Source of the DNA: Nitrospirota bacterium
Lineage (GTDB): Bacteria; Nitrospirota; Leptospirillia; Leptospirillales; Leptospirillaceae
Length of the DNA stretch: 64,000 bases
Direction of reading: 5' to 3'
Assembly (NCBI GenBank): GCA_021810805.1
Contig: JAJZHW010000001.1
Span: 62,001 to 126,000, forward strand
Part shown: piece after piece, positions 13,943 through 42,919 of the stretch
Numbering within the stretch: the stretch's first letter is position 1
Layout: each line of letters begins with the position of its first letter
Made by a program: the position numbers and the translations under genes
Notes under the pieces: generated by a model
Database searches by the model: none
What the model saw: the letters and a program-made list of their open reading frames with translations, nothing else
Told to the model about the DNA's origin: nothing

Positions 13943-13944
13943 GA

Positions 13945-14742
13945 GTGGACAGAACCTCTATGCGTGCCGTATCTCCTCCCTTCGACTCTTCGTCCTTTGT
14001 CGACTGTCTCAGAGCCTCCGGACGACTCCCGGAGGCTCTTTCGTATGATTCTGCCGCCATGGGCGGCGTGCCCCATGCCACCACGGTGCTGGCCCTGCGC
14101 TTCGAGGGAGGAGTCGTGATGGCTGGGGACCGCCAGGCCTCCGAAGGCTATCAGGTGGCCAGCCGTGCGATCTCCAAGGTCCTTCCCGTGGACCGTTACT
14201 CCTGCGTCGCCATTGCCGGCGCCGCGGGGCCGGCCATCGAGATGGCCCGTCTTTTTCGTGTGGAGATCGAACACTACGAGAAGCTTGAAGGCGTGATGCT
14301 GTCCACCTCCGGAAAGGCGAACAAGCTGGCTCAGATGGTGAGAGAGGCTCTTCCCATGGCCATGCAGGGTCTGGTCGTGGTCCCCCTCTTTGCCGCCTAC
14401 GACCCGGAGGCGCGGAGGGGTCGCATCTACAAGTATGATCCGGCAGGGGGACGCTATGAAGAGGAGACCTACCATGCCAATGGGTCGGGCGGTCTCTTCG
14501 CCCGGAATGCCCTCAAGATGCTCTACCGCGAGGGCATGAGCCGGGACGAGGCGGTGGAGGCCGCCCTCCGCGCCCTCTACGAGGCGGCGGACGAAGACCT
14601 GGGGACGGGGGGACCCGACTTCGTCCGGGAGATTTACCCCACCGTCTTCACGATGGATGCCGACGGAGTCCGGGAGAAGACCCAGGATGATGTGGCTGCC
14701 TACTACCGCGCCTTTGTCGCGGGTCTCAGGAAAAAGGAGTAG
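13945..14742 (+). CDS. prcB: 20S proteasome beta subunit PrcB
   Basis: Catalytic subunit of the proteasome core, 265 residues, made with a propeptide. The predicted cleavage is before T46 in the sequence P-H-A-T-T-V-L-A-L-R-F, leaving T46 as N-terminal nucleophile; the family lysine appears in R-A-I-S-K-V-L-P. The residue just before the nucleophile is Ala, where actinobacterial proteins have Gly. The S-G-G-L-F-A-R-N-A-L-K motif and G-M-S-R-D-E-A helix are typical. Start is GTG at 13945 behind GGAATAGGAG. Just 3 bp separate it from prcA. Confidence 0.94.
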   Translation: MDRTSMRAVSPPFDSSSFVDCLRASGRLPEALSYDSAAMGGVPHATTVLALRFEGGVVMAGDRQASEGYQVASRAISKVLPVDRYSCVAIAGAAGPAIEMARLFRVEIEHYEKLEGVMLSTSGKANKLAQMVREALPMAMQGLVVVPLFAAYDPEARRGRIYKYDPAGGRYEEETYHANGSGGLFARNALKMLYREGMSRDEAVEAALRALYEAADEDLGTGGPDFVREIYPTVFTMDADGVREKTQDDVAAYYRAFVAGLRKKE

Positions 14743-14745
14743 ACG

Positions 14746-15438
14746 TTGGCCGCACTTCCCTTTTACGTCTCGCCCGAACAGATCATGCAGGACAAGGCGG
14801 AGTATGCCCGGAAGGGGATTGCCCGGGGCCGGTCGGCCGTCGTCTTGCGCGTTCGGGAGGGGATTCTGCTGGCTGCCGACAACCCCTCGGCAGGGCTCCA
14901 CAAGATCTCGGAGGTCTACGACAGGATAGCCTTTGCCGGAGTGGGCAAGTACAGCGAATTTGAAAACCTCAGGAAGGCGGGGATCCGCCATGCCGACCTC
15001 AAGGGGTATACCTACAGCCGGGAGGACGTGACGGCAAGGTCTCTGGCCAATGCCTACTCCCAGCTTCTGGGGACCGCCTTCAGCCAGGAGATGAAGCCCC
15101 TTGAGGTGGAGATTGTCCTGGCGGAGGTGGGGGACAACGGCCGCTCCGACGAGATCTATCGGGTCAGCTACGATGGCTCGATCTTCGACGAACCGCTCTT
15201 TGCCGCGGTGGGGGGGAAGGCCGAGCCCCTCGCAGGACTCCTGAAGGACCGCCTCCCGGAAATTCCCCCGCTTGCCCGGGCGGTAACCCTTTTGCGAGAG
15301 GCCTTCGCCGAGATCTCGGGGGCGGCAATGCCCCTGTCTCAGATGGAGGTGGGGTTCCTCGATCGGGCGGGGAAGGGGAGAGTTTTCCGGAGGATGGGGG
15401 CCGACGAGATGGCGGCACTCTCCGGGGGGCCATCCTAG
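14746..15438 (+). CDS. prcA: 20S proteasome alpha subunit PrcA
   Basis: Structural subunit (230 residues) of the outer rings, which gates the core and binds the ATPase tail. The N-terminal F-Y-V-S-P-E-Q-I-M-Q-D-K-A-E-Y-A-R-K-G-I-A-R-G segment matches the alpha-subunit gate and first helix. Next come V-V-L-R-V-R-E-G-I-L-L-A-A-D-N-P-S and F-A-G-V-G-K-Y-S-E-F. There is no N-terminal threonine nucleophile. TTG start at 14746 with AAGGAG upstream. pafA follows after 21 bp. Confidence 0.93.
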   Translation: MAALPFYVSPEQIMQDKAEYARKGIARGRSAVVLRVREGILLAADNPSAGLHKISEVYDRIAFAGVGKYSEFENLRKAGIRHADLKGYTYSREDVTARSLANAYSQLLGTAFSQEMKPLEVEIVLAEVGDNGRSDEIYRVSYDGSIFDEPLFAAVGGKAEPLAGLLKDRLPEIPPLARAVTLLREAFAEISGAAMPLSQMEVGFLDRAGKGRVFRRMGADEMAALSGGPS

Positions 15439-15459
15439 ACCAAAGTCCTGGAGGACTTT

Positions 15460-16791
15460 ATGCACAGGCGGATCATTGGGCTTGAGAGCGAGTACGGCTT
15501 CCTGTTCATCAACCGGGGGGAGAGGATCTTCCCTTCGGAGAGAGCCCTGGAATATCTTTTCCAGGGGATCATGCCCAACAGCTGGTCGCGGGACGCCTTC
15601 CTTCCGAACGGGGCCCGGATCTATCAGGATACCGGGAGCCACCCCGAGTACTCGACGCCAGAATGCGACAGCGTTCGCGATGTCGTTCTCTTCGACAAGG
15701 CCGGGGAGAGGATCCTCTCCAAGGCGGCGGAGAGGGTCGACCGACTCCTCCTCCGGGAAGGGATCGAGGGCGAAGTCCATGTTCTGAAGAACAATACGGA
15801 CTCTGCGGGGAACTCCTACGGCTGCCACGAAAACTATCTGATCGACCGGAACGTCACCTTCTGGCGTCTCTCCCGGAGCCTCATCCCCTTCTTTGTCACG
15901 CGCCAGATCGTTTCCGGGGCGGGAGGTCTCGTCCGGGATTCCGAAGACCATGTCCGCTTCGTCATCTCCCCCCGGGCCCTCCACATCCGGGAGAAGATCT
16001 CCTGCTCCACCACCTCGAGCCGTCCGATCATCAATACCCGGGATGAGCCCCACTCCGACCCCCAAAAATACCGGCGGCTCCATATCATTGTGGGGGACTC
16101 GAACATGAGCGAGGTGAGCGACCTTCTCAAGGTGGCCACAACGTCCCTGGTCCTTGAGGTCGTCGAGGCCGGCGGGATCTCCGACAGGCTGAGCCTCGAG
16201 GATCCCATCGCCGCCATTCGGACGATTTCCGAGGATCCCTCCCTCTCGGCCCGTGTGAGGCTCGAGTCGGGCAAGGAGATGACGGCCATTGAAATCCAGA
16301 GGGCCTATCTCGAGGCCTGTCAGGAGTACTTTGTCCGGGAGAAGACGGAAGACTCCGTCCGTGATATCCTGAATCTGTGGGAAAAGATCCTAGGAGAGCT
16401 CTCCCGGGATGACGAGTCCCTGGGACGGGAGATCGACTGGGTCATCAAGCGCCGGCTTCTGGAGCGCTACATGAAGGGCCGCCACCATGGCTTGGACGAC
16501 CCGGAAACGGCCATGCTCGACTACCAGTACCACGATGTTGACGAGAAGCGGGGGCTTTACAACCTTCTTCTCCGGCAAGGTGAGGTGGCCCGTATCGCCA
16601 GCGACCGGGAGATCGATGCAGCCATGGTCTCTCCCCCCCGGACCACCCGGGCCCGACTGCGAGGAGAGCATATCCGGGCGGCGCTTGCCGACCATCGGTC
16701 CTTTACTGCGGACTGGACGTACATGAGACTCAACGATACCCCCCAGGAGACTTTTTTCTGGATGGATCCCTTTTGCGCCACGGAGCCCTGA
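15460..16791 (+). CDS. pafA: Pup-protein ligase PafA
   Basis: ATP-dependent ligase of 443 residues that phosphorylates the C-terminal Glu of Pup and attaches it to substrate lysines. It shares the glutamine-synthetase-like fold with Dop: G-L-E-S-E-Y-G-F at the N terminus, a P-N-G-A-R-I-Y-Q-D strand with H-P-E-Y-S-T-P-E, L-K-N-N-T-D-S-A-G-N-S-Y-G-C-H-E-N-Y, and N-T-R-D-E-P-H-S. Shorter than Dop and without the inserted loop near the N terminus. Last core gene of the proteasome operon; its TGA overlaps the ATG of the following gene. Confidence 0.94.
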   Translation: MHRRIIGLESEYGFLFINRGERIFPSERALEYLFQGIMPNSWSRDAFLPNGARIYQDTGSHPEYSTPECDSVRDVVLFDKAGERILSKAAERVDRLLLREGIEGEVHVLKNNTDSAGNSYGCHENYLIDRNVTFWRLSRSLIPFFVTRQIVSGAGGLVRDSEDHVRFVISPRALHIREKISCSTTSSRPIINTRDEPHSDPQKYRRLHIIVGDSNMSEVSDLLKVATTSLVLEVVEAGGISDRLSLEDPIAAIRTISEDPSLSARVRLESGKEMTAIEIQRAYLEACQEYFVREKTEDSVRDILNLWEKILGELSRDDESLGREIDWVIKRRLLERYMKGRHHGLDDPETAMLDYQYHDVDEKRGLYNLLLRQGEVARIASDREIDAAMVSPPRTTRARLRGEHIRAALADHRSFTADWTYMRLNDTPQETFFWMDPFCATEP

Positions 16792-21002: not shown

Positions 21003-21635
21003 TCAGACAGGTTCTTCGCCTGCCCCCTCTGTGAAGAGGGAGGTTCCACGTAAGCCACTCAAGACCCTGAAACAAAACTCCATAAGCTCGATATGGCGAA
21101 GGGCATCCTCGAGAGTGGCCCCCCAAACGGTGGTGCCGTGATGGCGGATGAGAAGGGCGGGGAGAGGTGCGGAGAGATTGCGAAGACGGTTCTCGATGCA
21201 TGCGGCAATCCGTTCGACGGCGGGATCGTTTTCAAAGATGGGAATTGGAGGGGCCTCTTCCGGGTGAGGAACCCCCATCCCCTTGAGAACTTCCAGGGGA
21301 GGAAGGCGAAGATCATCTTTTGCCAGAAGAGAGGCCAAAATGGCGTCGGGAGTGTGCACGTGGATGACGGCATGCGCCTCGGAAAAGACGCGATAGATGG
21401 CGCGATGGATGGATGTTTCTGCCGAGGGATTTCGTGTTCCTCCTCCGATGGGAACTCCCGATTCATTAATCTCAAGGATGTCGTCTGCTCGGATTAAACC
21501 CTTGTGGGCTCCGCTGGGGGTAATCAGGATCTGCTTCCCGACCCGAATGGAGAGGTTCCCGCCGGTGCCCTCCATCCAGCCCTTCCGGTACAGGAGGCGG
21601 GAAAGACGGGCAAGAGCCCTCTTTTTATCTGTCAT
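21003..21635 (-). CDS. mtnB: Methylthioribulose-1-phosphate dehydratase MtnB
   Basis: Class II aldolase-fold, zinc-dependent enzyme (210 residues) that dehydrates 5-methylthioribulose-1-phosphate to the diketo compound used by MtnW. The family signs are G-W-M-E-G-T-G-G-N-L-S-I, I-T-P-S-G-A-H-K-G, N-P-S-A-E-T-S-I-H and the zinc pair H-V-H-T-P-D-A, with a later I-R-H-H-G-T-T-V-W-G. It is the last gene of the mtnD-W-X-B unit and overlaps mtnX by 4 bp. Confidence 0.92.
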   Translation of the reverse strand: MTDKKRALARLSRLLYRKGWMEGTGGNLSIRVGKQILITPSGAHKGLIRADDILEINESGVPIGGGTRNPSAETSIHRAIYRVFSEAHAVIHVHTPDAILASLLAKDDLRLPPLEVLKGMGVPHPEEAPPIPIFENDPAVERIAACIENRLRNLSAPLPALLIRHHGTTVWGATLEDALRHIELMEFCFRVLSGLRGTSLFTEGAGEEPV

Positions 21636-22303
21636 CGTCGAGATTCCTTGAAGGTTTTTTTATTTAATTCGAGATAATTCGAAATTTCGAAAAATGTCTC
21701 AAACGGTCTGTAATCTCTCCCCTCTTCCTGAAGTTTCCTGGCAAGCAGGCTTCGGGCAAAGACAATGTCTCCCATGCGAGCCATGGAGAAATCCGTCACG
21801 GAATCCCCCACGACGATCCTTGTGGGGACATCGAAAGAAAGAAGAATCCCTGGCTTGTAGACAAGCTCGTCCCGGTCCGCATACGGCGAGGTGATCTTGA
21901 GAAAAGGACCGGAAAGGTCAACCTTCGCGGCCACGATGCGGGCGATCCGGTTCCTGTAGGGGCGGAGTGCCGCCATGATAAGGGGCTCGATGCTCCCGGA
22001 CAGGACGACCAGGGGGATCCCCAGACGGTCGAGGGTGTTCAGGAACTCCTCAAATCCCGCCCGAAGGGGGGCTTCCTCCATCCGTTTCTCCATGGCGGGA
22101 AAAACGGAGGAGGAAATGGTTTCAAGTACGGCCGGGACGCCGTCCCGGAGGGTGACCTCGCCGGAGAGAAGGCGGGGGACCATTCTTTCGGAGGCCTCCG
22201 GAGCAAACTCCCTCATCAAAAGGGAAAACGTCTCCTCCTGAGTGATGGTTCCGTCGAAGTCGGAGAAGACGACCGCAGGGGGAGAGGTGTTCATGTTCCC
22301 CAT
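21632..22303 (-). CDS. mtnX: HK-MTPenyl-1-P phosphatase MtnX (HAD family)
   Basis: HAD-family phosphatase of 223 residues that removes phosphate from 2-hydroxy-3-keto-5-methylthiopentenyl-1-phosphate. Motif I is F-S-D-F-D-G-T-I-T at the N terminus, motif II is V-V-L-S-G-S, and motif III/IV is V-V-G-D-S-V-T-D-F. The R-D-G-V-P-A-V-L region fits MtnX. Placed between mtnW and mtnB with overlaps of 13 bp and 4 bp. Separate MtnW and MtnX mean the fused-function MtnC route is not used. Confidence 0.9.
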   Translation of the reverse strand: MGNMNTSPPAVVFSDFDGTITQEETFSLLMREFAPEASERMVPRLLSGEVTLRDGVPAVLETISSSVFPAMEKRMEEAPLRAGFEEFLNTLDRLGIPLVVLSGSIEPLIMAALRPYRNRIARIVAAKVDLSGPFLKITSPYADRDELVYKPGILLSFDVPTRIVVGDSVTDFSMARMGDIVFARSLLARKLQEEGRDYRPFETFFEISNYLELNKKTFKESRR

Positions 22304-23469
22304 TTGAGAACCGCCGCCTTGAGGGGGCCTTCGGGAAGGGCGTCCGGAGAGAAGGATTCTTGGTTTTGCCAGCGGGCCCAGGCTTCGTGGAAGGCCTTCA
22401 CGCCGGCAGCGGGGCCTTGAGGGTGATCCATGATTCCGGTTCCGGCATTGAGGATGATTCGGGTATTTCTGTCGGGAAGGAATCGGGGAAGGGCGCCGGG
22501 ATGAACGCCGGCTGAGGGGACCGGAGCCAATCCCCCGTGGAGGAGGGTGTTACGAATGTCGGATTCCGTGTCGGCGGAGATCGGAAGGTTTCCGGCACTG
22601 GTGGGGTAGAGTACGGCGTCGGCTCCTCCGTGAACCATCAATGTGCCGAGAAGGACGCTCATGTCGAAGCCGTAGTCGGGGGACCCGCCGAGAGCCCCGG
22701 CCATGGCCGGATGGGCAAAGATCGGGAGATTGGTGTCGGGATGGGAGGCGAGGGCCTCCATGACGGAAAGCCCGTAGGCAAAGGGGGAGAGAAGGTAGGC
22801 ATTGGCTCCGGCCTCCCGAAGCCTTCGGGCCGAATCGAGAAGCTTGTCGGCCCTGCCGGAGAGGGTCACGGCATAGAGCATCGTTCTCTTTTGGGTCCGT
22901 TCGATCTCTTCGAGGATGGGACGACAGGCCCTGATCCGGGAGAGGGCCGTCGATGCGGGAGTATCGGGGAGAATCTCGTCGTCCTTGATCAGGTCGAGTC
23001 CCGCTTCGCCCACCTCGCGAAGAATGCGTGCCAGGTCATCGGGAGAGAGCCCCAACGCCGGTTTGAAGATGCCCATGAAGAGAGGGCGACCGGAGACCCG
23101 AGCCAGGCGGGCGATCCCGTCAAAACCCCAACGTCCCCGGGCTCCATAGTCCGAGGGCAATTCCAGTCTCCGAATCTTGGCCGGACCGGCCAGAGAGTAT
23201 TTTCCCAGAATCATTACGAGAAGAGATCCCAAATCGCCCGAGACATTATGGGAAGGATATCGGACCCACGCCTGTCCCCGTCCGTCGGAGAGAACATCGG
23301 ACGACTCCAGTGTTCCCTGATAGGAGGCAATCTGTGCCGCCATGCCGGGAACAAGGGAGCCAACTGTTTGGCCCAGGGCGAGATTCTGGCCCTGCCGTTT
23401 GGGGTCTACCCCCGGGGGAAATTCGTAGAGGACGCGGACGACCGATTCCTGGCGGGACTGGATCATCAT
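22291..23469 (-). CDS. mtnW: RuBisCO-like protein, DK-MTP-1-P enolase MtnW
   Basis: RuBisCO form IV protein of 392 residues that enolises 2,3-diketo-5-methylthiopentyl-1-phosphate. The magnesium/carbamate site is kept as D-L-I-K-D-D-E with the carbamylated lysine at K162, and the loop is G-I-F-K-P-A-L-G-L. In true RuBisCO this loop is K-P-K, so the second lysine is replaced by Ala, as in enolase-type relatives. Later loops include H-P-A-M-A-G-A and the phosphate-binding N-A-G-T-G-I-M-D-H-P. With mtnX, mtnB and mtnD alongside, the role in methionine salvage, not carbon fixation, is well supported. Confidence 0.92.
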   Translation of the reverse strand: MMIQSRQESVVRVLYEFPPGVDPKRQGQNLALGQTVGSLVPGMAAQIASYQGTLESSDVLSDGRGQAWVRYPSHNVSGDLGSLLVMILGKYSLAGPAKIRRLELPSDYGARGRWGFDGIARLARVSGRPLFMGIFKPALGLSPDDLARILREVGEAGLDLIKDDEILPDTPASTALSRIRACRPILEEIERTQKRTMLYAVTLSGRADKLLDSARRLREAGANAYLLSPFAYGLSVMEALASHPDTNLPIFAHPAMAGALGGSPDYGFDMSVLLGTLMVHGGADAVLYPTSAGNLPISADTESDIRNTLLHGGLAPVPSAGVHPGALPRFLPDRNTRIILNAGTGIMDHPQGPAAGVKAFHEAWARWQNQESFSPDALPEGPLKAAVLKWGT

Positions 23470-24011
23470 GCGAAGGCGGGAGAAAGCGGGCGCCCCGTAT
23501 AGAGAGGAACCCAGCCTTCCCGGGAGGTGAAATATCGGACGGCTTTGATGCGTTTCGGGGCAGTGAGGCGAAACCAGTGTTCGGCTCCCCTTGGGACGTT
23601 GATGTAGTCTCCGCTTTCGACAAGAAGCTCCACCTGATCGCCGTCCGGCAGGACAAAGCCAAAGATTCCCTCGCCTTCCACGATGTAACGGATCTCATCG
23701 TCGTCATGGGTATGGATGGCCCGGAACTTGTCCTCGAGAGCCCCAAGTCCGGGAAGGTCAGGATCGAGAACCACGAGATCCTGGGTCTGGTAGCCCAGAG
23801 TCTTCCTGAGGTGCTCGAATCGAGGAAGAAAGGCATGGAGAACTTTTTCATGTTCCGTGGGGTCGAGTCGGGCCTTTCCCAAAAGATTTTCAAGGTCTGT
23901 GTTCCCGGGAATTGGCCAGGATTCGAGCGTGACTCCGATGGGAGTGAGAAGGGCGGAGATCAGAGGCAACTCTTTTAGTTGGGTCTTGTCGGTACGAAAA
24001 AGTATGGCCAT
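23466..24011 (-). CDS. mtnD: Acireductone dioxygenase MtnD
   Basis: Cupin metalloenzyme of 181 residues that oxidises acireductone to the keto acid of methionine and formate (iron form). The metal ligands appear in H-T-H-D-D-D-E-I-R-Y and the later R-G-A-E-H-W-F. The cupin strands G-D-Y-I-N-V-P and V-R-Y-F-T-S-R-E-G-W-V match the family. It is the first mtn gene and overlaps mtnW by 4 bp; a membrane-protein gene ends 21 bp upstream. Confidence 0.93.
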   Translation of the reverse strand: MAILFRTDKTQLKELPLISALLTPIGVTLESWPIPGNTDLENLLGKARLDPTEHEKVLHAFLPRFEHLRKTLGYQTQDLVVLDPDLPGLGALEDKFRAIHTHDDDEIRYIVEGEGIFGFVLPDGDQVELLVESGDYINVPRGAEHWFRLTAPKRIKAVRYFTSREGWVPLYTGRPLSPAFA

Positions 24012-32062: not shown

Positions 32063-33313
32063 ATGAAGCTTTACGAGCACGAGGCCCTAGGAGCAATCTT
32101 CAAAAAATACAAGATTCCGGTCCCCCGTTATATCTTTGCCACAGAAATGAATGAGGCTGTCTCTCAGTTTGTCGAGAAGGAACCCGGCGTTGTTGTGAAG
32201 TCGATGGTTCTTGTGGGCAAGAGGGGAAAAGCGGGTGCGGTGAAGGTTGTCTCTGACAAGGCGAAGGTGGCGGAGGTCGTCAAGGATCTCGCGACACGGG
32301 ATGTCTACGGAGAAAAGTCCATCGGCGCCCTCGTCGAGGAAAAACTGGACATCGAAAAAGAGTTTTATCTTTCAGTGACATATTCCACGAAGGATCGTGC
32401 GCCGGCCATTATCTTCAGTGAACATGGCGGTATGGATGTTGAAGAGATCGATCCCAAACTCATTCACACCCATGTCATTGCCGACGTTCGCTCTGTCTAT
32501 CCTTACCAGATCCGCCAATTTCTGACCAATATCGGATTCTCTGACAAGGATCTTCTTCGTCCGCTGTCTGAGGTGATTGTCAATGTTTATAATGCCTTTG
32601 TGGGTGCTGAGTGTCGCCTTCTTGAAATCAATCCGCTGGTCGTTGCCCGATCGGGCGACAAGCGAAAGATTGTTGCGGCCGACGCTGTGGTCATTCTCGA
32701 TGATGACGCGTCTGTGAACCCCGCCATTGCGTATGGGGCGAGAAGCGCTCAGGGCCGTCCTATGACTCAGCGGGAGCAGGATGCCATCCTGATCGATCAG
32801 GGTGACCACCGCGGAAAGGCGGGGTCCTATGTCGAGCTTGAGGGTGATATTGCCATGATGACCTTTGGTGGTGGCGGTTCGACGGTGACGGCCGAGACGG
32901 CGATCGAAGCGGGTCTAAGAATTGCCAACCTGACCGATATCGGAGGCAACCCTCCTGCGGAAAAGATGTACCGTATTTCCCGCATCATTCTCTCCAAGCC
33001 TGGACTCAAAGGAGTTCTTGTTTGCGGGGGAACTGCGAGCAACACAAGAATTGATGTGACTCTCGGAGAGGGACTCGCCAAAGCCCTTGACGACATGAAT
33101 GCCGAAGGAAAGCTAGACAAGAATCTGGTTTGGGTTGTCCGCCGATCCGGTCCCGAGTATGTTAAAGGCTTAAAGATGTTGCACGAGTGTTTTGAGCGGA
33201 ATGGGATCCGGGGTGAGATCTATGATTCCCAACTCCCCATTACGGAAGCGCCGATCCGCTTGAAGGAACTTTTGATCAAGCATACAGGATATAAGCCTGA
33301 GCAGGTTGTATAG
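32063..33313 (+). CDS. ccsA: Citryl-CoA synthetase large subunit CcsA
   Basis: ATP-grasp protein of 416 residues, similar to the succinyl-CoA synthetase beta chain, which with CcsB activates citrate to citryl-CoA using ATP and CoA. Seen are the N-terminal K-L-Y-E-H-E-A ATP-grasp start, G-K-R-G-K-A-G-A-V-K-V, the C-R-L-L-E-I-N-P-L-V-V metal-binding strand, and a CoA-ligase half with F-G-G-G-G-S-T-V-T-A. I call it CcsA rather than a second SucC because a dedicated sucCD pair, a citrate-synthase-like lyase and aconitase are in the same cluster. SD AAAGGAG. Confidence 0.8.
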   Translation: MKLYEHEALGAIFKKYKIPVPRYIFATEMNEAVSQFVEKEPGVVVKSMVLVGKRGKAGAVKVVSDKAKVAEVVKDLATRDVYGEKSIGALVEEKLDIEKEFYLSVTYSTKDRAPAIIFSEHGGMDVEEIDPKLIHTHVIADVRSVYPYQIRQFLTNIGFSDKDLLRPLSEVIVNVYNAFVGAECRLLEINPLVVARSGDKRKIVAADAVVILDDDASVNPAIAYGARSAQGRPMTQREQDAILIDQGDHRGKAGSYVELEGDIAMMTFGGGGSTVTAETAIEAGLRIANLTDIGGNPPAEKMYRISRIILSKPGLKGVLVCGGTASNTRIDVTLGEGLAKALDDMNAEGKLDKNLVWVVRRSGPEYVKGLKMLHECFERNGIRGEIYDSQLPITEAPIRLKELLIKHTGYKPEQVV

Positions 33314-33340: not shown

Positions 33341-34330
33341 TTGAAAGGTACCGTTTATCTGAACGACAAAACTGGTGTTGTGGTGATCGGCGCAACCGGA
33401 CGAGAGGCATCCCAGGTCATCAAGGAGTCTGAAGCGCTCTATCCGGGAATTGTCAAAGCCGGAATCACCCCGGGAAAAGGTGGAAGTACTGAGCTTCCCG
33501 TTCCTGTCTTTGATACTCTGGCCGAAGCGGTGAAGGATCCTAAGGTGGGAAAGCTTCTCAATACTGCCCTGATTTATGTTCCCCCCGTTTCAGTTCTTGA
33601 TGCAGTGATGGAGTGTCTCGACAACGGTATCAAGGTCCTGTATATTATCACCGAGCATGTTCCAATTCGTGACTCCGAGATCATTTTTCAGGAAAAAGAA
33701 CGCCGTGGCGCCATTATCGTTGGTGGCACAAGCCTCGGGTGTTTTGTTCCCTCGGTGGGTCGAATTGGAGCAATCGGAGGAAAAGATCCTTCTGTCGCAT
33801 TCAAGGATGGCGGGATTGTCGTCATTTCCAAGAGTGGAGGTCTCACCGTTACCACGGCAGAGATGTTCAAGCGCCGTGGGTGGGGGACCTATATGGCTTT
33901 GGCCATTGGCGGCGATATCATCTCGAATACGACCTACTCTGATGTGCTAAAGCAGATCAAGGGCGACCCGAAGGTGAAAGCGGTTGTCATGCTAGGAGAG
34001 CCGGGCGGGGCGTACGAGGAGCAGGTTGCTGATCTGATTACCTCCGGCGGATTTGATAAGCCTGTTGCTGCATTTATCTCAGGTCGTTTCCAGGAAAGAA
34101 TGCCCGAAGGCGTGGCCTTTGGACATGCTGGAGCCATTGTTGAGCGGGGGATGGGGAAGGCGACCGATAAGATTTCCCGTCTCGAAGCTGCCGGAAAGAA
34201 ACATCCGGTAAAGGTCGCCTTCTATTACCATGACTTGGTGAAGGCGATCGAGTCGCTCGGGGTTCCTCGGGATTTCGAGGACAGCACGGCCGAGCACGTT
34301 AAGCCTCTGTATTCAACAATCCAGAGGTAA
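33341..34330 (+). CDS. ccsB: Citryl-CoA synthetase small subunit CcsB
   Basis: SucD-like subunit of 329 residues. The CoA-binding N half has V-V-I-G-A-T-G-R-E-A-S-Q-V and G-K-G-G-S-T-E-L-P-V, and the phospho-histidine loop is F-G-H-A-G-A-I-V-E-R-G, the histidine being the relay residue for ATP-derived phosphate. TTG start at 33341 behind GGAGG. It follows ccsA by 27 bp. Divergent from the SucD in the same window, as expected for a protein adapted to citrate. Confidence 0.8.
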   Translation: MKGTVYLNDKTGVVVIGATGREASQVIKESEALYPGIVKAGITPGKGGSTELPVPVFDTLAEAVKDPKVGKLLNTALIYVPPVSVLDAVMECLDNGIKVLYIITEHVPIRDSEIIFQEKERRGAIIVGGTSLGCFVPSVGRIGAIGGKDPSVAFKDGGIVVISKSGGLTVTTAEMFKRRGWGTYMALAIGGDIISNTTYSDVLKQIKGDPKVKAVVMLGEPGGAYEEQVADLITSGGFDKPVAAFISGRFQERMPEGVAFGHAGAIVERGMGKATDKISRLEAAGKKHPVKVAFYYHDLVKAIESLGVPRDFEDSTAEHVKPLYSTIQR

Positions 34331-34771: not shown

Positions 34772-36694
34772 ATGGCGCTTAACCTGACCCAGAAAATCTT
34801 CAAGAATCACTTGGTTTCCGGAGAAATGGTTGCCGGCAAGGAAGTGGCAATCCGCATCGATCAGACCCTGACCCAGGATGCGACCGGCACCATGTCCTAT
34901 CTTCAGTTTGAAGCCCTTGGACTCGATCGCGTAAAGACGGAACTTTCGGTCTCCTATGTCGATCATAATATGCTTCAGACCGGTTTTGAAAATGCCGATG
35001 ACCATCGGTATCTTCAGACGGTTGCGGCGCGCTACGGCATCGTTTTCTCCCGCCCCGGCAACGGAATCTGCCATCAGGTTCATCTTGAGCGTTTTGGTAA
35101 GCCCGGAAAGACGCTTCTCGGATCTGACAGCCACACCCCCACTAATGGTGGACTGGGCATGATTGCCATCGGTGCAGGAGGTCTCGACGTGGCTCTTGCC
35201 ATGGGCGGAGAGCCTTTTTACACGGCCATGCCAAAAGTTGTCTTGGTCAAGTTGACCGGTAAGCTTCAGCCATTTGTCTCCGCCAAGGATGTCATCCTTG
35301 AACTGCTTCGTCGGCTTACTGTCAAAGGTGGCGTTGGCCGGATCTTTGAATATGGCGGAGAGGGTGTGGCGAGCCTTTCTGTGCCTGAACGCTCAACCAT
35401 TACCAATATGGGCGCTGAGCTTGGTGCAACAACCTCCATCTTCCCCTCGGACGATCAGACTCGGAAGTATCTGAAGGCCCAGGGACGGGAAGGCGACTAT
35501 GTTGCGATGGCGGCAGATCCCGGTGCCACCTACGATGAGACAGTGGAAATCGATCTGAACACCCTTGAGCCGTTGATTGCCCAACCGCACTCCCCGGATA
35601 ACGTGGTTAAGGTTCGGGAGATTGCCGGAATCCCAGTCAGCCAGGTGGCGATTGGCTCCTGCACGAATTCTTCTTACAAGGATCTTTTGGGAATTGCGGC
35701 CATCATGAAGGGGAAGACCGTTCATCCCTCTGTGAGCCTGGGCTTTTCGCCAGGATCCCGGCAGACGCTGGAAATGATTTCCCAGAATGGTGTTCTGGGC
35801 GATCTGATCACATCGGGAGCCCGCCTCCTCGAATCGGCCTGCGGACCCTGCATTGGAATGGGTTTCGCGCCCCCTTCCGGTGGCGTCTCCGTCCGGACCT
35901 TTAACCGGAATTTCGAGGGCCGGTCCGGGACCAAGGATGCCAAGGTTTATCTTGCCAGCCCTGAAGTGGCGGCAGCGTGTGCCATTACCGGTGTGATCAC
36001 CGATCCCAGAGACTTGGGGGTCGCTCCCAAATCAGTCGATCTTCCGGAAAAGTATGTCCTTGATGATCGCATGATGATTTTCCCCCCGAAGGAGGGGACC
36101 GGAATCGAAGTTCTTCGCGGGCCCAACATCAAGCCGCTTCCGACGCGGGACCGAATCTCCGAGACGGTTACTGGCTCGGTTCTGCTGAAGGTTGGGGACA
36201 ATATCACAACTGATCACATCATGCCTGCTGGTGCGAAAGTTCTCCCACTTCGCTCGAATGTGCCGGCTATCTCTCAGTATGTTTTCGAGTCTGTTGATCC
36301 CACCTTTCCAAAGAGAGCCAAAGAAGCCGGTGGAGGTTTCATCGTTGGTGGCACAAACTACGGTCAGGGATCGAGCCGTGAACATGCGGCGCTCGCCCCG
36401 ATGTACTTGGGCGTCAAGGCTGTCATCGTGAAGGGGTTTGCCCGTATTCACCTTGCCAACCTGATCAATTTCGGCATTCTCCCTCTGACCTTCGTCAATG
36501 AGGCAGACTACGACAAAATCGATCGGGACGACCAGCTTGAGTTCAGCACCGCTGGCATGGAAAAGGGATCACTCGTTCTGAAGAATCTGACAAAGAAGCT
36601 CGAGATCCCCGTCAAGCACGCCCTTACCACCCGCGACCTTGAAATTGTCCGGGCAGGGGGAACGTTGGCTTATGTCAAGGGCCGCAGCCGTTAG
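34772..36694 (+). CDS. acn: Aconitate hydratase
   Basis: Iron-sulfur enzyme of 640 residues interconverting citrate and isocitrate. The cluster cysteines are C297 in G-S-C-T-N-S-S, then C357 and C360 in A-C-G-P-C-I-G-M-G. Other signs are S-D-S-H-T-P-T-N-G-G near residue 125 and the C-terminal swivel domain with N-Y-G-Q-G-S-S-R-E-H-A. The length and motif spacing resemble mitochondrial-type aconitase rather than AcnB. In the reductive cycle it delivers citrate to CcsAB. Confidence 0.95.
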   Translation: MALNLTQKIFKNHLVSGEMVAGKEVAIRIDQTLTQDATGTMSYLQFEALGLDRVKTELSVSYVDHNMLQTGFENADDHRYLQTVAARYGIVFSRPGNGICHQVHLERFGKPGKTLLGSDSHTPTNGGLGMIAIGAGGLDVALAMGGEPFYTAMPKVVLVKLTGKLQPFVSAKDVILELLRRLTVKGGVGRIFEYGGEGVASLSVPERSTITNMGAELGATTSIFPSDDQTRKYLKAQGREGDYVAMAADPGATYDETVEIDLNTLEPLIAQPHSPDNVVKVREIAGIPVSQVAIGSCTNSSYKDLLGIAAIMKGKTVHPSVSLGFSPGSRQTLEMISQNGVLGDLITSGARLLESACGPCIGMGFAPPSGGVSVRTFNRNFEGRSGTKDAKVYLASPEVAAACAITGVITDPRDLGVAPKSVDLPEKYVLDDRMMIFPPKEGTGIEVLRGPNIKPLPTRDRISETVTGSVLLKVGDNITTDHIMPAGAKVLPLRSNVPAISQYVFESVDPTFPKRAKEAGGGFIVGGTNYGQGSSREHAALAPMYLGVKAVIVKGFARIHLANLINFGILPLTFVNEADYDKIDRDDQLEFSTAGMEKGSLVLKNLTKKLEIPVKHALTTRDLEIVRAGGTLAYVKGRSR

Positions 36695-36778: not shown

Positions 36779-37576
36779 ATGAGCAAGGAGCCTCAAGGAA
36801 AAGAATTGAACTGGAAGACCCGTGTGGGAGGTCAGGTCGATGGAAAGCCTGTCGTTCGGGGATATCCTCTCGACGATCTGGTGGGGAGAGTCTCCTTTGC
36901 CGAAGCCATTTTTCTGATTCTCAAGGGAGAACTTCCCTCCGAGCGTGAGAAAAAGATGATGGAAGCGATGCTCGTGGCCTGTATCGATAACGGGATTGGT
37001 CCTCCGTCGGTGGTGGCGGCAAGAACGGTCTTTTCTGGCGGGAACCCCCTGAATGCCGCCGTTGGAGCGGGTGTTCTGACCCTGGGGGATTCCCACGGGG
37101 GAGCCATCGAGCAATGTGCCCGGATCTACCAGGAAAACTTTCCTGCCGATGTTGTGGACGTCCGCGCCCATGCGAAGGCTGTGGTGGAAGATTTCGACAA
37201 AAAGAAAAAGAGGCTTCCCGGATACGGCCATAAGCTCTACAAGCGTGACCCTCGGACTCTTCGCCTTCTTGAACTTGCCAAAGAGTATGGGTACATGGGG
37301 CGTTTTGTCGAGTTTGCCGTGGCTGTCCAGGATGAACTGGAAGCCAAGAGCGGAAAGAATCTTCCTCTGAATGTGGACGGGATGATTGCCGCCGTGATCT
37401 CCGAGATGGGGCTGTCATGGAAAAACGGAAAGGGACTGTTCATTATTGGCCGCATTCCGGGGCTTGTCGCTCATGTCGTTGAGGAATGGGAGCGAGAAAA
37501 GCCATTTCGACGTCTCGAAGAGGGGACCTATGCCTACGATGGCACCCCTGTTCGTCCCGTTCCGGGAGCGCGCTAA
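36779..37576 (+). CDS. ccl: Citryl-CoA lyase (citrate synthase family)
   Basis: A 265-residue protein of the citrate-synthase superfamily, shorter than true citrate synthase (about 370-430 residues), as expected for Ccl, which cleaves citryl-CoA to acetyl-CoA and oxaloacetate. The three catalytic regions are present: D-S-H-G-G-A-I-E, P-G-Y-G-H-K-L-Y-K-R-D-P-R and N-V-D-G-M-I-A-A-V. Located behind the acn terminator and before a PsiE-like gene. With CcsAB it forms the two-step replacement of ATP-citrate lyase. Confidence 0.85.
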   Translation: MSKEPQGKELNWKTRVGGQVDGKPVVRGYPLDDLVGRVSFAEAIFLILKGELPSEREKKMMEAMLVACIDNGIGPPSVVAARTVFSGGNPLNAAVGAGVLTLGDSHGGAIEQCARIYQENFPADVVDVRAHAKAVVEDFDKKKKRLPGYGHKLYKRDPRTLRLLELAKEYGYMGRFVEFAVAVQDELEAKSGKNLPLNVDGMIAAVISEMGLSWKNGKGLFIIGRIPGLVAHVVEEWEREKPFRRLEEGTYAYDGTPVRPVPGAR

Positions 37577-37721: not shown

Positions 37722-38279
37722 TTGTCCGAAGAGCCCTCTCCCAATCCCGCACTCCCCCCTCAGCTGGAAGAAATTGAGCAGAAATTTCCCTCATGGTACC
37801 TCGGAGGCGTCAAACTCGTTCTTCTGACGCTTCTCCTCATCCAGTTCCTTGCCATGGTCTGGGGGATTTGGGAGACGATCGAGCAGGCGTTCATCCATGC
37901 CCAGAGAGGCCTTCTCTCCCTCCTTAAGTCAATGATCGTGAATATCCTTCTTCTTCTGGCACTTCTTGAGGTTTCGCGAACGATCCTGACCTATTTCACT
38001 TTAGGACGAGTGAAGGTGACCTACATCGTCGACTCGGTGCTGGCGGTTCTCCTTTCCGAAACCCTTGTGACATGGTTTTCCAATGAACCTCTGTCAAGGT
38101 ATGTCGAACTTGTCATGGTGCTCCTTGCCCTGACGATCCTCCGGGTGATTGCCATTCGCTACCATCCCTCCAGCGGGACCAAGGAAAAGAAACCCTTTCT
38201 CGATCCGACACTTCCAGGAGGCTGGTACCGTAGACGCAAGGATGACGGGGGAAAACGTACAGGAAAGTCTTCGACATAA
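37722..38279 (+). CDS. PsiE-like four-helix membrane protein
   Basis: A 185-residue protein with four hydrophobic segments (about 28-50, 65-87, 102-120 and 126-146). The L-L-E-V-S-R-T-I-L-T-Y-F-T-L-G-R-V-K-V-T-Y segment matches the PsiE (phosphate-starvation-inducible) family. The C-terminal tail is soluble and basic. TTG start behind AAGGAG. Role unknown; lies between ccl and frdB. Confidence 0.65.
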   Translation: MSEEPSPNPALPPQLEEIEQKFPSWYLGGVKLVLLTLLLIQFLAMVWGIWETIEQAFIHAQRGLLSLLKSMIVNILLLLALLEVSRTILTYFTLGRVKVTYIVDSVLAVLLSETLVTWFSNEPLSRYVELVMVLLALTILRVIAIRYHPSSGTKEKKPFLDPTLPGGWYRRRKDDGGKRTGKSST

Positions 38280-38496: not shown

Positions 38497-39183
38497 ATGG
38501 AGAGTCGGATAGAAGGACCTGAAACAATGGTTCGGGTCTCGATCAACGGGCGAGAATATAGCGTTCATCAAGGGTCCACCATGGTCCAGGCAATGTGGTA
38601 CACCGGCCATGAGGTGATTCATGGGGTGGGCTGTTTGGGCGGAGTGTGCGGCGCCTGTGCGACAGTGTATCGCATAGAAGGTGACTTTCGACTGAGAAAT
38701 GCCCTGGCGTGCCAGACGCTTGTCTCGGAAGGCATGAGCTTTTCCATGCTGGACTCCTATCCGATTCAGCGCGCCCATTATGATGTGGCGGCCCTGACAG
38801 ATCCGAAGGAAGAACTCTTTAATTACTACCCCGAGTCTGCCACATGCCGAAACTGTAATGCCTGCACGGAGGTCTGCCCCCAGGGAATTGATGTGCGGGA
38901 TTCGGTCTGGCGGGCAAACTTTGGAGACTTCAAAGCAGTCGCTGACATGACCTTTAGCTGTGTCATGTGTGGTCTTTGCGTCTCTCGTTGCATCGCCGAA
39001 ATGGCCCCCCACGAAATTGCCCTCTATGCCCGTCGTTCTTATGGTGCGAAGGAGCTTCCATTTCCTCCCAATCTTCGCCACAGGCTTGATGAAATCCATT
39101 CCGGAACATTTACGGGAGATCTCAAGCGCCTTGAATCCCTCTCTCCTGACGAACTCAAAAAAGAATGCGAGGTCCGTTCCTAG
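38497..39183 (+). CDS. frdB: Fumarate reductase iron-sulfur subunit FrdB
   Basis: Electron-transfer subunit of 228 residues. The [2Fe-2S] ligands are C46, C51, C54 and C72. Two further motifs follow: C117-x2-C120-x2-C123-x3-C127-P and C155-x2-C158-x2-C161-x3-C165. In classical SdhB/FrdB the second motif lacks the C158 equivalent and builds a [3Fe-4S] cluster; here the extra cysteine predicts [4Fe-4S]. The ATG at 38497 has GGAGG upstream (a TTG at 38485 is rejected). frdA starts at the next base after its stop; no membrane-anchor genes are near. Confidence 0.85.
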   Translation: MESRIEGPETMVRVSINGREYSVHQGSTMVQAMWYTGHEVIHGVGCLGGVCGACATVYRIEGDFRLRNALACQTLVSEGMSFSMLDSYPIQRAHYDVAALTDPKEELFNYYPESATCRNCNACTEVCPQGIDVRDSVWRANFGDFKAVADMTFSCVMCGLCVSRCIAEMAPHEIALYARRSYGAKELPFPPNLRHRLDEIHSGTFTGDLKRLESLSPDELKKECEVRS

Positions 39184-40779
39184 ATGGCTGATCTAGTGGA
39201 ATCCTTCTACGCCAATACCCCAGCCTTCGATGATTCTCCTCCCTCTTCACTTTCACCGGAGGACCGCTCTCGCCTTCTTTCCTCTTATTATCCTGACTAC
39301 CGCCCCGAAGGGAAGGCGACATTAAAAGTCGGTCCGAATAAGGGAACGGTTGTTCCTCAGGAGCTGGCCGATGTTCTAGAGTCCAGAAGCCGACTTCCTT
39401 CTCCCCGCCACCTTCCCGATCACCCGGACCACGATGTCGATATCCTGATTCTTGGAGGCGGAGGCGCGGGAATCACTGCGGCCTTGTTTGCCGCGAAAGA
39501 AGGGCGAAGCGTCCTTCTGGCCACCAAGCTTCGTGTGGGTGATTCGAATACGGTGATGGCCGAAGGAGGGATCCAGACGGCCCTCGGAGAGGACGATAGC
39601 CCCGTTGTCCATTTTCGGGATACCTTCCGAGGTGGCCATGGGGCAAACGATCCCTCCCTCCTTTCCGTGCTGGTCTCCGAAGGGCCAGAGATGATTGAGT
39701 GGCTCGTGTCCCGGGGAATCCTCTTCGATCGTGATCCTCAAGGGGGCCTTTCTCTGAGAAAGGGGGGAGGAACCTCCAAACCCCGTCTCATTTCGGCGAA
39801 GGACTATACCGGCCTTGAGCTGATTCGGGTCCTCAAGGAAGACGTGGTCAATGCCCCGGTGGAAATTCTTGAGTTCTCCCCAGCCATTGAACTCATTGCT
39901 GGTCCGGAGGGGAGCTGCGCCGGGGCGGTTCTCTACGACCTTGACAGCCGGCGATATATTTATGTAAAGGCCAAATCGGTCATCCTGGCGACGGGCGGAG
40001 CCGGAAGACTTCACTTGGCGGGATTTGCCACATCGAATCACTTTGGTGCCACGGCTGATGGTTTGACAATGGCCTATCGCATGGGAATCCCTCTTGTTCA
40101 TCCGGAGAGCTTCCAGTTCCACCCCACCGGGGTGCTCTTTCCCTCCGAAATGGCCGGGATGCTCATCACCGAGGCGGTCAGGGGAGCGGGTGCCCGCATG
40201 TATAACCGCCTCGGCAAGCGGTTTGTCAATGAACTTGAAACCCGCGATGTGGTGGCGTCGGCCATTATTCGGGAGTGTGCGGAGGGCCGCGGGGTGAAGA
40301 CGCCTCAGGGGGCCTCAGGCGTCTACCTTGACCTTGTCTCCATTGACCGGGATTCCGGAGAGGGAACGGTGGAGCGGCGCTTTCCGAACATTGTCAAGCT
40401 TATGAAACGCCACCATGTGGATCCGACAAAGAAGCCGATTCTTGTCTATCCCACACTTCATTATCAAAACGGGGGGATCCGGATTGATGCCCGCACCCGG
40501 ACGACTGTCTCCCATCTGCTCGTGGCCGGCGAAGCCTCGGGAGGTCTCCACGGCACCAACCGCCTTATGGGGAACTCGTTGCTCGAGCTCTTTGTTTTTG
40601 GACGCCGTGCGGGATTGGAGGCGGCGGAACAGTCACTCCATCGCCCGGCCTTCTCCTGGAAGGAGACGAGCCTGTCGCACCTCGACCGCTTCGAGAAAGA
40701 GCTGACCTCTGCCTTTCCCGCCACAGAACGTCCCATGGCGCCGGTTCTCTTTCCCGACTACCGTCGCAAGGAATCCTGA
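39184..40779 (+). CDS. frdA: Fumarate reductase flavoprotein subunit FrdA
   Basis: FAD subunit of 531 residues reducing fumarate to succinate in the reductive cycle. An N-terminal extension of about 80 residues (with V-G-P-N-K-G-T-V-V-P-Q-E-L) precedes the FAD motif G-G-G-G-A-G-I-T-A-A near 91-100. Where E. coli FrdA has the FAD-linked histidine before T-V-A-A-E-G-G, this protein has N122 (D-S-N-T-V-M-A-E-G-G), so FAD should be non-covalent. H-P-T-G-V-L, R-G-A-G-A-R-M-Y and G-T-N-R-L-M-G-N-S active-site segments are kept. No anchor subunits, so a soluble enzyme is likely. Confidence 0.88.
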   Translation: MADLVESFYANTPAFDDSPPSSLSPEDRSRLLSSYYPDYRPEGKATLKVGPNKGTVVPQELADVLESRSRLPSPRHLPDHPDHDVDILILGGGGAGITAALFAAKEGRSVLLATKLRVGDSNTVMAEGGIQTALGEDDSPVVHFRDTFRGGHGANDPSLLSVLVSEGPEMIEWLVSRGILFDRDPQGGLSLRKGGGTSKPRLISAKDYTGLELIRVLKEDVVNAPVEILEFSPAIELIAGPEGSCAGAVLYDLDSRRYIYVKAKSVILATGGAGRLHLAGFATSNHFGATADGLTMAYRMGIPLVHPESFQFHPTGVLFPSEMAGMLITEAVRGAGARMYNRLGKRFVNELETRDVVASAIIRECAEGRGVKTPQGASGVYLDLVSIDRDSGEGTVERRFPNIVKLMKRHHVDPTKKPILVYPTLHYQNGGIRIDARTRTTVSHLLVAGEASGGLHGTNRLMGNSLLELFVFGRRAGLEAAEQSLHRPAFSWKETSLSHLDRFEKELTSAFPATERPMAPVLFPDYRRKES

Positions 40780-40817: not shown

Positions 40818-42005
40818 TTGAACATCCATGAGTATCAGGCCAAGGAGCTTTTCAGAAGCTATGGCGTGGCCGTTCCTTCGGGGGTCGTCGTCGACTCCCC
40901 TGAAGAGGCGCGCCGTTTGATTTCCGAAAAATCAGGGATTTTCTCTGGAAATTCCTCCGTCTATGCCGTCAAGGCGCAGATTCATGCGGGAGGACGGGGA
41001 AAGGCGGGGGGAGTCAAGATCGCGAAAAACGTCTCGGACATTCCCGGCTTTGTCGAGTCGCTTTTGGGAAAGACCCTGGTCACGCATCAAACCGGACCGG
41101 AAGGACGTCTTGTGCGAAAGGTCTGGATCGAAGAGGGTGCCCAGATCGCTCGCGAGTACTATTTGAGCCTTGTTCTTGACCGCTCCAGCCGCAGGATTTC
41201 CATTCTTGCCAGCACCGAGGGGGGGATGGAGATTGAAGAGGTCTCCGCCGCTCATCCCGAAAAGATCCTGACCCTTGCCGTCGATCCGGAGATGGGTTGC
41301 AAATCCTTTGTGGGTCGGCGAGTGGCCTCTTTTCTGGGCCTCCCGGTGACACTCTTTGGACAATTTTCGACCCTTTTGGCCAACCTTTACCGCTTTTTCG
41401 TCGAAACTGACTGCATGATGGTCGAGATCAACCCCCTGATCCAGACGGGAGATGGCCGGCTCTTGGCTCTCGACGGGAAAGTGTCCTTCGACGACAACGC
41501 CCTCTATCGTCAGGAAAAGGTGCTGGCTCTCCGGGATCTCTTCGAGGAGAATGAGCTTGAGATCGAGGCCTCGAAACATCGTCTGAATTATGTGAAGCTC
41601 GACGGATCGATCGCCTGTATGGTCAATGGGGCAGGTTTGGCAATGGCCACGATGGATGTGATTGCTTTGGCCGGAGGCACTCCCGCGAACTTCCTGGACG
41701 TGGGAGGAGGCGCCAGCAAGGAAACTGTTGAGCAGGCCTTCCGGATCCTTCTGGGAGACCCCGAAGTCAAAGGGATTTTTGTCAATATCTTTGGCGGAAT
41801 TGTCCGCTGCGAACGCATTGCGGGAGGCATTATCGCCGCAGCCAAAGACGTGAAACTCCATGTGCCCCTCGTGGTTCGTCTCCAGGGCACCAATGCCAAG
41901 GAAGGACGGGAGATGCTTCGGGAGTCCGGCCTTGATCTCCAGGTGGCGGAAGAGCTCTTCGAGGGCGCCCAGAAAATTGTCCAGGCTGTGAAAGGAGCCA
42001 AATGA
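40818..42005 (+). CDS. sucC: Succinyl-CoA synthetase beta subunit
   Basis: ATP-grasp subunit of 395 residues that with SucD makes succinyl-CoA from succinate, ATP and CoA. Family signs: [10 protein letters not shown] start, [21 protein letters not shown] and the C-half [22 protein letters not shown] start behind CCAGGAG. Overlaps sucD by 4 bp. Follows frdA by 38 bp. Confidence 0.95.
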
Positions 42006-42919
42006 GCATTCTTGTCGACCGATCGACGCGGGTCATCGTCCAGGGAATCACCGGCAAGGAGGGGAGTTACCACGCCACTGCCTGCCGGGAATATGGAACC
42101 AGGGTTTTGGGAGGCGTGACTCCGGGAAAGGGCGGAACTGTCCATGAGGGCTTTCCCGTCTGGGATTCCGTGAGGGATGCCGTTGATGCCGTTCATCCGG
42201 ATGTTTCCCTGATCTTTGTTCCTCCGGCCTTTGCCGCGGATGCGATCCTTGAGGCCGCGGATGCCGGAATCGAACTCATCGTTTGCATCACCGAGGGAAT
42301 TCCGGTTCAGGACATGATGAGAGTCCGCCGCATCCTCGATATCCGCAACGAAGAGGGGGAAACGGTCCGTCTCATCGGACCGAACTGTCCTGGCATCATT
42401 ACTCCGGATGGGGCGAAAATCGGGATCATGCCGGGGTATATCCACAAGCGGGGAAAAGTGGGCGTCGTCTCCCGCAGCGGAACCCTGACCTATGAGGCCG
42501 TTTGGCAACTGACCCAGTTGGGGTTGGGGGAATCCACCTGCGTCGGGATCGGCGGCGATCCTGTGCGGGGCCTCAACTTCCTCGATGTGCTTGCCCTTTT
42601 CGAAAAGGATCCCGAGACCGAGGCCATTGTCATGATCGGTGAGATCGGCGGGGATGACGAAGAGCGTGCGGCCGCCTTTGCCCGCGCCCACATGACAAAG
42701 CCGGTGATCGGCTTCATTGCTGGATTGACGGCCCCTCCAGGCCGCCGCATGGGCCATGCCGGAGCCATTGTCTCCGGAGGCAAGGGATCGGCCCGGGACA
42801 AGATGAAGGCGCTTGAGTCCTATGGCATCATCGTGGTGGACAATCCTTCGGTGATTGGGAAGACAGTGGCCGAAACCCTGTCGAAGGGCGACTATCGGCG
42901 CGTGCCCAGCTGTCACTAA
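42002..42919 (+). CDS. sucD: Succinyl-CoA synthetase alpha subunit
   Basis: CoA-binding subunit of 305 residues. [11 protein letters not shown] is the CoA-site start, G-P-N-C-P-G-I-I follows, and [10 protein letters not shown] carries the phospho-histidine. Longer and more canonical at its CoA site than CcsB. Co-translated with sucC. Confidence 0.95.

Follow-up and report, generated by a model that had tools for sequence, protein, structure and literature searches.

Whether a fumarate reductase that serves CO2 fixation draws its electrons from the membrane or from a soluble carrier is the question raised by two abutting genes, frdB and frdA, in the DNA of a Leptospirillum-like iron oxidiser. 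The pair probably specifies a fumarate reductase of two subunits without membrane anchor, used in CO2 fixation, and this enzyme, FrdBA, belongs to a little-described family whose members are often found beside heterodisulfide-reductase (Hdr) genes. The window, as we call the whole stretch of 64,000 nucleotides that was analysed, is part of a 1.87 Mb assembly of 88.7% completeness, which bounds all assembly-wide negative results given below.

The cluster runs in the order ccsA-ccsB-aconitase-ccl-orf1-frdB-frdA-sucC-sucD (Table 1), followed by an ORF that is peroxiredoxin-like by eye, and the frdB ATG at 38497 has GGAGG just 5' of it. By synteny it corresponds to cluster 1 of Leptospirillum ferriphilum DSM 17947, which according to the accessible text of PMC2607301 has been in print as a reductive-TCA cluster since 2008; expression of reductive-TCA gene products was shown in L. 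ferriphilum (PMC5772234). This synteny makes Leptospirillum the very probable source of the DNA. Our additions to the published locus are its placement in a clade, the Hdr-linked relatives and the evidence that FrdBA is distinct from type E. The accessible text of PMC2607301 treats neither the cofactor residues nor the clade nor the Hdr-linked relatives, and the cofactor residues are likewise not treated in the accessible parts of PMC3578206, PMC8407350, PMC3917532, PMC5596200, PMC7282089, PMC7325909, PMC12542636, PMC10553843, PMC8691401, PMC2702500, PMC9802188 and PMC5772234, a statement limited to these papers.

Table 1. Features of the gene cluster and of FrdB and FrdA, in window coordinates.
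Feature	Position	Strand	Basis
ccsA, citryl-CoA synthetase large subunit	32063..33313	+	name from published synteny
ccsB, citryl-CoA synthetase small subunit	33341..34330	+	name from published synteny
aconitase	34772..36694	+	profile score over cut-off
ccl, citryl-CoA lyase	36779..37576	+	profile score over cut-off
orf1, PsiE-family-like, four hydrophobic segments; published anchor candidate	37722..38279	+	seen here only in Leptospirillum-family loci
frdB, 228 aa: [2Fe-2S] domain (N-terminal) and predicted HdrC-like dicluster domain (C-terminal)	38497..39183	+	ORF, fold, 12 invariant Cys
[2Fe-2S] ligands C46, C51, C54, C72	38632..38712	+	correspond to E. coli FrdB C58/63/66/78 counting Met
CxxCxxCxxxCP motif: C117, C120, C123, C127	38845..38877	+	alignments
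CxxCxxCxxxC motif: C155, C158, C161, C165	38959..38991	+	alignments
C158 codon, "extra" cysteine	38968..38970	+	opposite E. coli V207 (V208 counting Met)
frdA, 531 aa flavoprotein	39184..40779	+	ORF, E. coli alignment, fold; PF02910 C-terminal domain not detected
FrdA N-terminal extension, ~82 aa	39184..39429	+	throughout clade; absent from E. coli FrdA
conserved stretch of the N-terminal extension	39289-39345	+	clade alignments
N122 codon	39547..39549	+	opposite E. coli H44 (H45 counting Met), covalent FAD site
catalytic residues H313, E330, R354, H426, R460	within 40120..40563	+	E. coli alignment
sucC, succinyl-CoA synthetase beta	40818..42005	+	profile score over cut-off
sucD, succinyl-CoA synthetase alpha	42002..42919	+	profile score over cut-off

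Cofactor sites and predicted folds

All 11 cysteines of E. coli K-12 FrdB coincide with cysteines of the window FrdB in the family alignment. The original prediction had singled out an additional cysteine, C158, at a position that is not Cys in the classical protein, and this reading of the alignment was confirmed: C158 lies opposite E. coli V207 and is invariant together with the 11 others in 48/48 FrdB-like ORFs, as well as in a separate 30-row FrdB alignment, giving the third cluster four cysteines and FrdB 12 in total. What this residue means had to be revised, however. In the AlphaFold models (mean pLDDT 85.8 for FrdB and 87.8 for FrdA), the C-terminal half of FrdB is predicted to fold like HdrC, its best structural match (8rvu_c, Z 11.5, rmsd 2.0, 86 aligned), followed by CODH alpha and RnfC ferredoxin domains, and the N-terminal half matches the [2Fe-2S] domains of NuoG and hydrogenases. 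HdrC-like dicluster domains bind two [4Fe-4S] clusters. With such a predicted fold, C158 would be a regular position of the dicluster domain rather than an isolated substitution in a FrdB of the classical type. A sequence search of the PDB with FrdB gave four weak matches, three CODH alpha chains and one RnfC; classical SdhB chains are absent from the best 50 VIA-align rows, which is no evidence against kinship, and Foldseek finds the complex-II chains 9fq7_2N and 2h89_B at TM ~0.3. As the four-Cys motif is also visible in type-E SdhB (loci L194 and L196), it tells little about direction or potential, so that C158 does not serve as the sign of either for which it had been taken; to call the enzyme low-potential was an overstatement, since the sequence gives no potential.

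Foldseek matches the FrdA model best to E. coli FrdA, whose H233, E246, R288, H356 and R391, which we take to be the catalytic residues, are kept as H313, E330, R354, H426 and R460 in the window. The predicted replacement of the FAD-linking His by N122 holds as well: N122 aligns with E. coli H44 and is kept in 38/38 FrdAs of the Nitrospirota clade (of the 40 FrdA-like rows aligned, two paralogues with S and N, respectively, in this column were set aside), and Asn occupies the flavin column in 74/76 FrdAs of the GTDB-scan loci, the other two being gaps. Judged from these alignments, the FAD of FrdA is probably non-covalent. The N-terminal extension, which precedes the Rossmann motif, gave BLAST matches (E 0.01) to 37 ORFs in the Nitrospirota set and to 77 in that from GTDB, and a [HY]PD[YFH] pattern lies within it in 60/66 FrdAs of at least 500 aa. 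The part that starts at the last catalytic Arg is 212 residues long in E. coli FrdA, 76-86 in its counterparts among the relatives and 72 in the window FrdA, and the PF02910 domain was not found in FrdA by Pfam. By hydropathy, FrdB has no segment above 1.6 and FrdA a single one (1.73), located at the first Rossmann strand, so that a transmembrane segment is unlikely in either subunit.

Related loci and the distinction from type E

A scan of GTDB yielded 416 relatives, of which 80 loci were kept. They come from Thermodesulfobacteriota, Deltaproteobacteria, Planctomycetota, Chloroflexota, Acidobacteriota and other phyla, and lean to the branch of L058 because the query led with the L058 FrdB; the one Nitrospirota locus among them, L079, is the same locus as L058. 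An FrdA ORF is present in 76/80 loci and adjoins frdB in nearly all of them. Within 7 kb on the same strand, we found HdrB-like CCG proteins in 46 loci (downstream in L085 and L090), HdrC-like in 36, FrhB-like in 21, HdrA-cluster proteins in 14 and FlpD/MvhD in 12, neighbour clusters being named from one or two profiled members each. HdrB ends at most 600 bases upstream of frdB in 33/80 loci, with 9/80 having less than 1.5 kb before frdB. In a second group, comprising Geobacter argillaceus and its kin, genes for fumarase and for a cytochrome-b561/ferredoxin protein accompany frdA-frdB, joined in some members by citrate lyase genes. In nine Leptospirillum-family loci compared, there were no HdrB/HdrC genes near frdBA.

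FrdA identity to the window is 45-50% in nine rows of the GTDB scan. In the FrdA tree, 69 rows form one clade of three subclades, with the window in the Nitrospirota subclade (95/99). A branch of 2.2 (100/99) separates this clade from the outgroups, which include NadB, E. coli FrdA and, clustering with E. coli FrdA, two type-E SdhAs; there are five outgroup rows, several of them on long branches. The FrdB tree, which has no outgroups, divides into a side of 45 rows including the window and one of 82 rows with the GTDB relatives. By its N-terminal extension, its Asn at the flavin site, its short FrdA C-terminus and its 12-Cys FrdB, the window FrdBA belongs to the clade with N-extended FrdA.

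Within the phylum, FrdB homologues (E 1e-10) were found in 139/295 sampled Nitrospirota genomes and in 120/253 of the better ones. A further stretch, L075 in genome G029 (C1), contained no frd gene. The Leptospirillum family has FrdB in 19/21 genomes, Fer2_3 in 0/21 (E 0.001) and HdrB/SdhE in 0/21 (E 1e-30). Among the other FrdB-bearing Nitrospirota, Fer2_3 occurs in 115/120 and HdrB/SdhE in 82, the HdrB/SdhE matches exceeding the family's own cut-off in 0/295; in eleven hand-picked genomes the HdrB/SdhE match starts 612-888 bases after Fer2_3, as in the type-E operon. Two loci, L192 in genome G081 and L194 in G130, encode an SdhA with His in an RSHS motif followed by a CCG protein. As both genomes hold this His-type SdhA besides an Asn-type FrdA, the type-E succinate:quinone reductase (SQR) and FrdBA are different enzymes. 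The His motif is known from these two loci, the SdhA pattern being unmatched in five other regions, except for a 1040-aa ORF of L195 with P at the column, which we presumed to be a false pick and kept out of the tree; locus L199 was likewise left out. Type-B and type-E SQRs were described side by side for Nitrospina gracilis, with the second [4Fe-4S] cluster as a type-E trait (PMC3578206), and both frd and sdh operons were named for Nitrospira (PMC5596200).

In the window's assembly, neither a Fer2_3 SdhB nor Sdh_cyt (PF01127, the anchor family searched, found in 7/14 control genomes) was detected at E 0.001, nor were FlpD and Sdh5, two absences that are weak because each occurs in just 2/14 control genomes. 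An SdhE-type subunit was also not found in the assembly, whose CCG matches are confined to one ORF of 941 aa that looks, by eye, like a fused glycolate/lactate oxidase (GlcD/GlcF-like). Together with the hydropathy result, these negatives support the predicted solubility of FrdBA. A second classical SDH was considered and rejected, since the other long FrdA-like ORFs are AprA (732 bits, cut-off 557) and an L-aspartate-oxidase-like protein (434.7 bits, just under its cut-off of 452.75), and the rest of the nine FrdA-like matches are short FAD-motif ones. An Hdr partner encoded in the genome was likewise discarded, as HdrB-like and FlpD proteins were not found. FrdBA is the only complex-II-type enzyme found in this assembly.

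It is thus hardly credible that FrdBA is a type-E SQR (Sdh/Mfr-like), as published. The four-Cys motif of its third cluster is indeed that of type E, yet no SdhE-type partner was found, FrdB has no Fer2_3 match and scores 22 bits on the dhsB profile against a cut-off of 88, FrdA falls apart from the two type-E SdhAs (in the tree with few and partly long outgroups), and type-E-like SQRs exist separately in other Nitrospirota. We therefore rejected this filing.

Electron supply, direction and the anchor question

The proposed reductive use of FrdBA agrees with its neighbourhood: in 10/10 Leptospirillum-family loci, some of them cut by contig ends, ccs/ccl, aconitase and suc genes make up a reductive-TCA cluster with the pair, and citrate-cleaving genes, weak ccs/ccl matches that are probably ATP-citrate lyase, are close by in 20/29 other FrdB-bearing Nitrospirota loci. 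We consider it fairly probable that FrdBA is a cytoplasmic, anchorless fumarate reductase of the reductive TCA cycle in a Leptospirillum-like iron oxidiser and is fed by a soluble carrier, a reading in which we infer cluster types, non-covalent flavin, solubility, direction and donor. Electrons would enter FrdB via the HdrC-like dicluster domain with its two putative [4Fe-4S] clusters and cross the [2Fe-2S] cluster to the probably non-covalent FAD of FrdA, which would reduce fumarate to succinate for the cycle by means of the standard catalytic residues; the dimer would need neither quinone nor membrane anchor. The donor would be a soluble low-potential carrier, with reduced ferredoxin, which POR and OGOR of the same cycle would also require, as first choice and NAD(P)H via an unlinked partner as second. 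Where Hdr genes are present, HdrB/HdrC would be the natural donor; with no HdrB-like or FlpD protein found in Leptospirillum, the donor there would have to differ from that of the Hdr-linked relatives.

No donor gene was found inside the cluster in the Leptospirillum-family loci. Six Nitrospirota loci have a gene of one and the same family between aconitase and frdB; considered as a donor gene, it was rejected, the profiled member being a monomeric isocitrate dehydrogenase. With ferredoxin or NADH as donor, an iron oxidiser short of energy would waste much of it on reducing fumarate, which counts against the carrier-fed enzyme, as do the cluster's lack of a donor gene and the conservation and reported co-transcription of orf1. 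It is conceivable, though we doubt it, that FrdBA is active only as part of a larger complex whose further subunits, an NADH module for example, have their genes at other loci, a reading that overlaps with the soluble carrier-fed enzyme. The soluble NADH-dependent fumarate reductase of Hydrogenobacter thermophilus, with five subunits and scattered genes, offers a model, and relatives of FrdBA adjoin HdrABC/MvhD/FrhB-like genes; against it, no conserved extra electron-transfer gene was seen in the Leptospirillum-family loci, and the genome search for HdrB-like and FlpD proteins was negative.

That no membrane-anchor gene lies near, as was stated originally, calls for a reservation, since orf1, with four hydrophobic segments by hydropathy, ends 217 bases upstream of frdB and is a published anchor candidate. 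According to the accessible text of PMC2607301, only frdAB without a known anchor were found in L. ferriphilum, orf1 is co-transcribed and was proposed as the anchor, and the enzyme was classed as type E. A lineage-specific anchor role of orf1, though not a clade-wide one, is possible; the proposal as a whole, by which FrdBA would be a quinol:fumarate reductase, appears unlikely to us. The position of orf1 before frdB in 10/10 family loci (the window and nine others), its hydrophobic segments and the reported co-transcription speak in its favour, and no further complex-II gene was found in the family that bears orf1. Yet orf1 matches the PsiE family (E 7e-6), ten aligned copies lack a conserved His for haem, 0/29 other FrdB-bearing Nitrospirota loci show it at E 1e-8, and 53-316 bases separate it from frdB in eight pairs (mechanical ORF ends) and 217 in the window, whose frdB and frdA abut. 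It is even less plausible that FrdBA is bidirectional and doubles as succinate dehydrogenase in a respiratory TCA cycle. It is the sole candidate found in the assembly, and its catalytic residues are those common to SDH and FRD. Mutants of E. coli H44 retain fumarate reduction and lose succinate oxidation, however, and the Asn at the flavin site thus argues against succinate oxidation, as does the reductive-TCA context.

Going beyond the soluble carrier-fed enzyme, we tentatively suggest that Leptospirillum lacks a quinone-linked complex II and that its FrdBA stems from an Hdr-coupled, possibly bifurcating module, which would have lost its Hdr partners on capture into the reductive TCA cluster and may now be fed by ferredoxin via the HdrC-like wire. 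If this were true, the fumarate step of CO2 fixation in Nitrospirales would be independent of the quinone pool; the metabolic model of Nitrospira moscoviensis has fumarate reduced by quinol through succinate dehydrogenase (PMC8407350). A soluble donor for the reductive-TCA FrdBA would alter how much energy CO2 fixation costs the Nitrospirota that oxidise nitrite or iron. The Leptospirillum family is a clean place for such a test because no second complex-II enzyme was found there, and a connection between Hdr and fumarate reduction could be tested in the sulfate reducers and other organisms that carry this clade.

Comparison with known systems

In L. ferriphilum DSM 17947, the legend of PMC2607301 places frdA before frdB, whereas frdB comes first in the window. 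Fumarate reductases without membrane subunits have been described elsewhere, with frdAB in an actinobacterium (PMC7325909) and a cytoplasmic enzyme proposed for Syntrophobacter (PMC8691401). For the 'succinate operon' of Pseudoclostridium thermosuccinogenes, it was proposed that Flx-Hdr supplies a fumarate reductase with electrons while also reducing ferredoxin (PMC7282089); we liken this enzyme to FrdBA by description, with an Hdr partner there and none found in Leptospirillum.

Classical complex II of types A-D differs in that its covalent-FAD His and its three-Cys [3Fe-4S] site are both absent from FrdBA. E. coli FrdABCD shares the catalytic residues and the FrdA fold with the window, but has membrane anchors, and His-FAD and [3Fe-4S] where the window has N122 and C158. 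Methanogen TfrA gives the best NCBIfam score of FrdA (348 bits), below the cut-off of 718 bits, and the 228-aa FrdB reaches 20 of 385 bits for TfrB, with no CCG match for the fused HdrB-like domain of the TfrB type. FrdA is also not assigned to the flavocytochrome c fumarate reductases (199.5 bits on TIGR01813, cut-off 285.45). The NADH-dependent enzyme of H. thermophilus, likened by description, is a soluble reductive-TCA enzyme too, but has five subunits. The Hdr-linked FrdBA of Thermodesulfobacteriota and other phyla has HdrB/HdrC and sometimes HdrA, FlpD/MvhD and FrhB-like genes nearby, none of which was seen in the Leptospirillum-family loci, but shares the N-terminal extension, the Asn, the short FrdA C-terminus and the 12-Cys FrdB with the window.

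Duplicated and unusual FrdB homologues

Several other Nitrospirota lineages (loci L051, L053, L055, L056 and L063-L067) carry two frdB genes in tandem 5' of frdA. In the FrdB alignment all 12 cysteines are present in both copies, and the second copy forms a separate branch in the FrdB tree. A wire made of two FrdBs is possible in these lineages. The Nitrospirota genome G006 encodes two FrdBA pairs (loci L061 and L062). One belongs to the window's branch; the other, from the Hdr-linked branch, shares its locus with HdrC, HdrB, HdrA and MvhD-like ORFs.

In locus L121, FrdB lies at the end of a 504-aa open frame, which may be a fusion or just a long open frame. The FrdB homologue of L054 is followed by a radical SAM/BATS protein ORF, and no FrdA match was found within this 13-kb locus.

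Features and their coordinates (L-numbers, comparison loci with local coordinates)
Feature	Location	Strand	Score
Tandem frdB pair	L051 8446-9872
Tandem frdB pair	L053 8270-9660
FrdB in 504-aa frame	L121 7206-8720
FrdB homologue	L054 4434-5123
Adenylylsulfate reductase alpha subunit	L003 485-2649 (G000:C9)	minus	732 bits (cut-off 557)
Bacterial proteasome cluster	window 10189-16791
RuBisCO-like protein and neighbours	window 21003-24011	minus

Other genes of the window and its assembly

The assembly of this presumed iron oxidiser also encodes an adenylylsulfate reductase alpha subunit, adjoined by a small cysteine-rich ORF. The proteasome cluster comprises a proteasomal ATPase, two Pup-ligase family proteins and two proteasome subunits.

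The RuBisCO-like protein adjoins an MtnB-like class II aldolase, an MtnX-like HAD phosphatase and an ARD-family protein, a group that looks like methionine salvage, with MtnW and MtnX scores under the NCBIfam cut-offs. This could be relevant to the RubisCO that PMC5772234 notes for Leptospirillum ferriphilum, with its role given as unknown.
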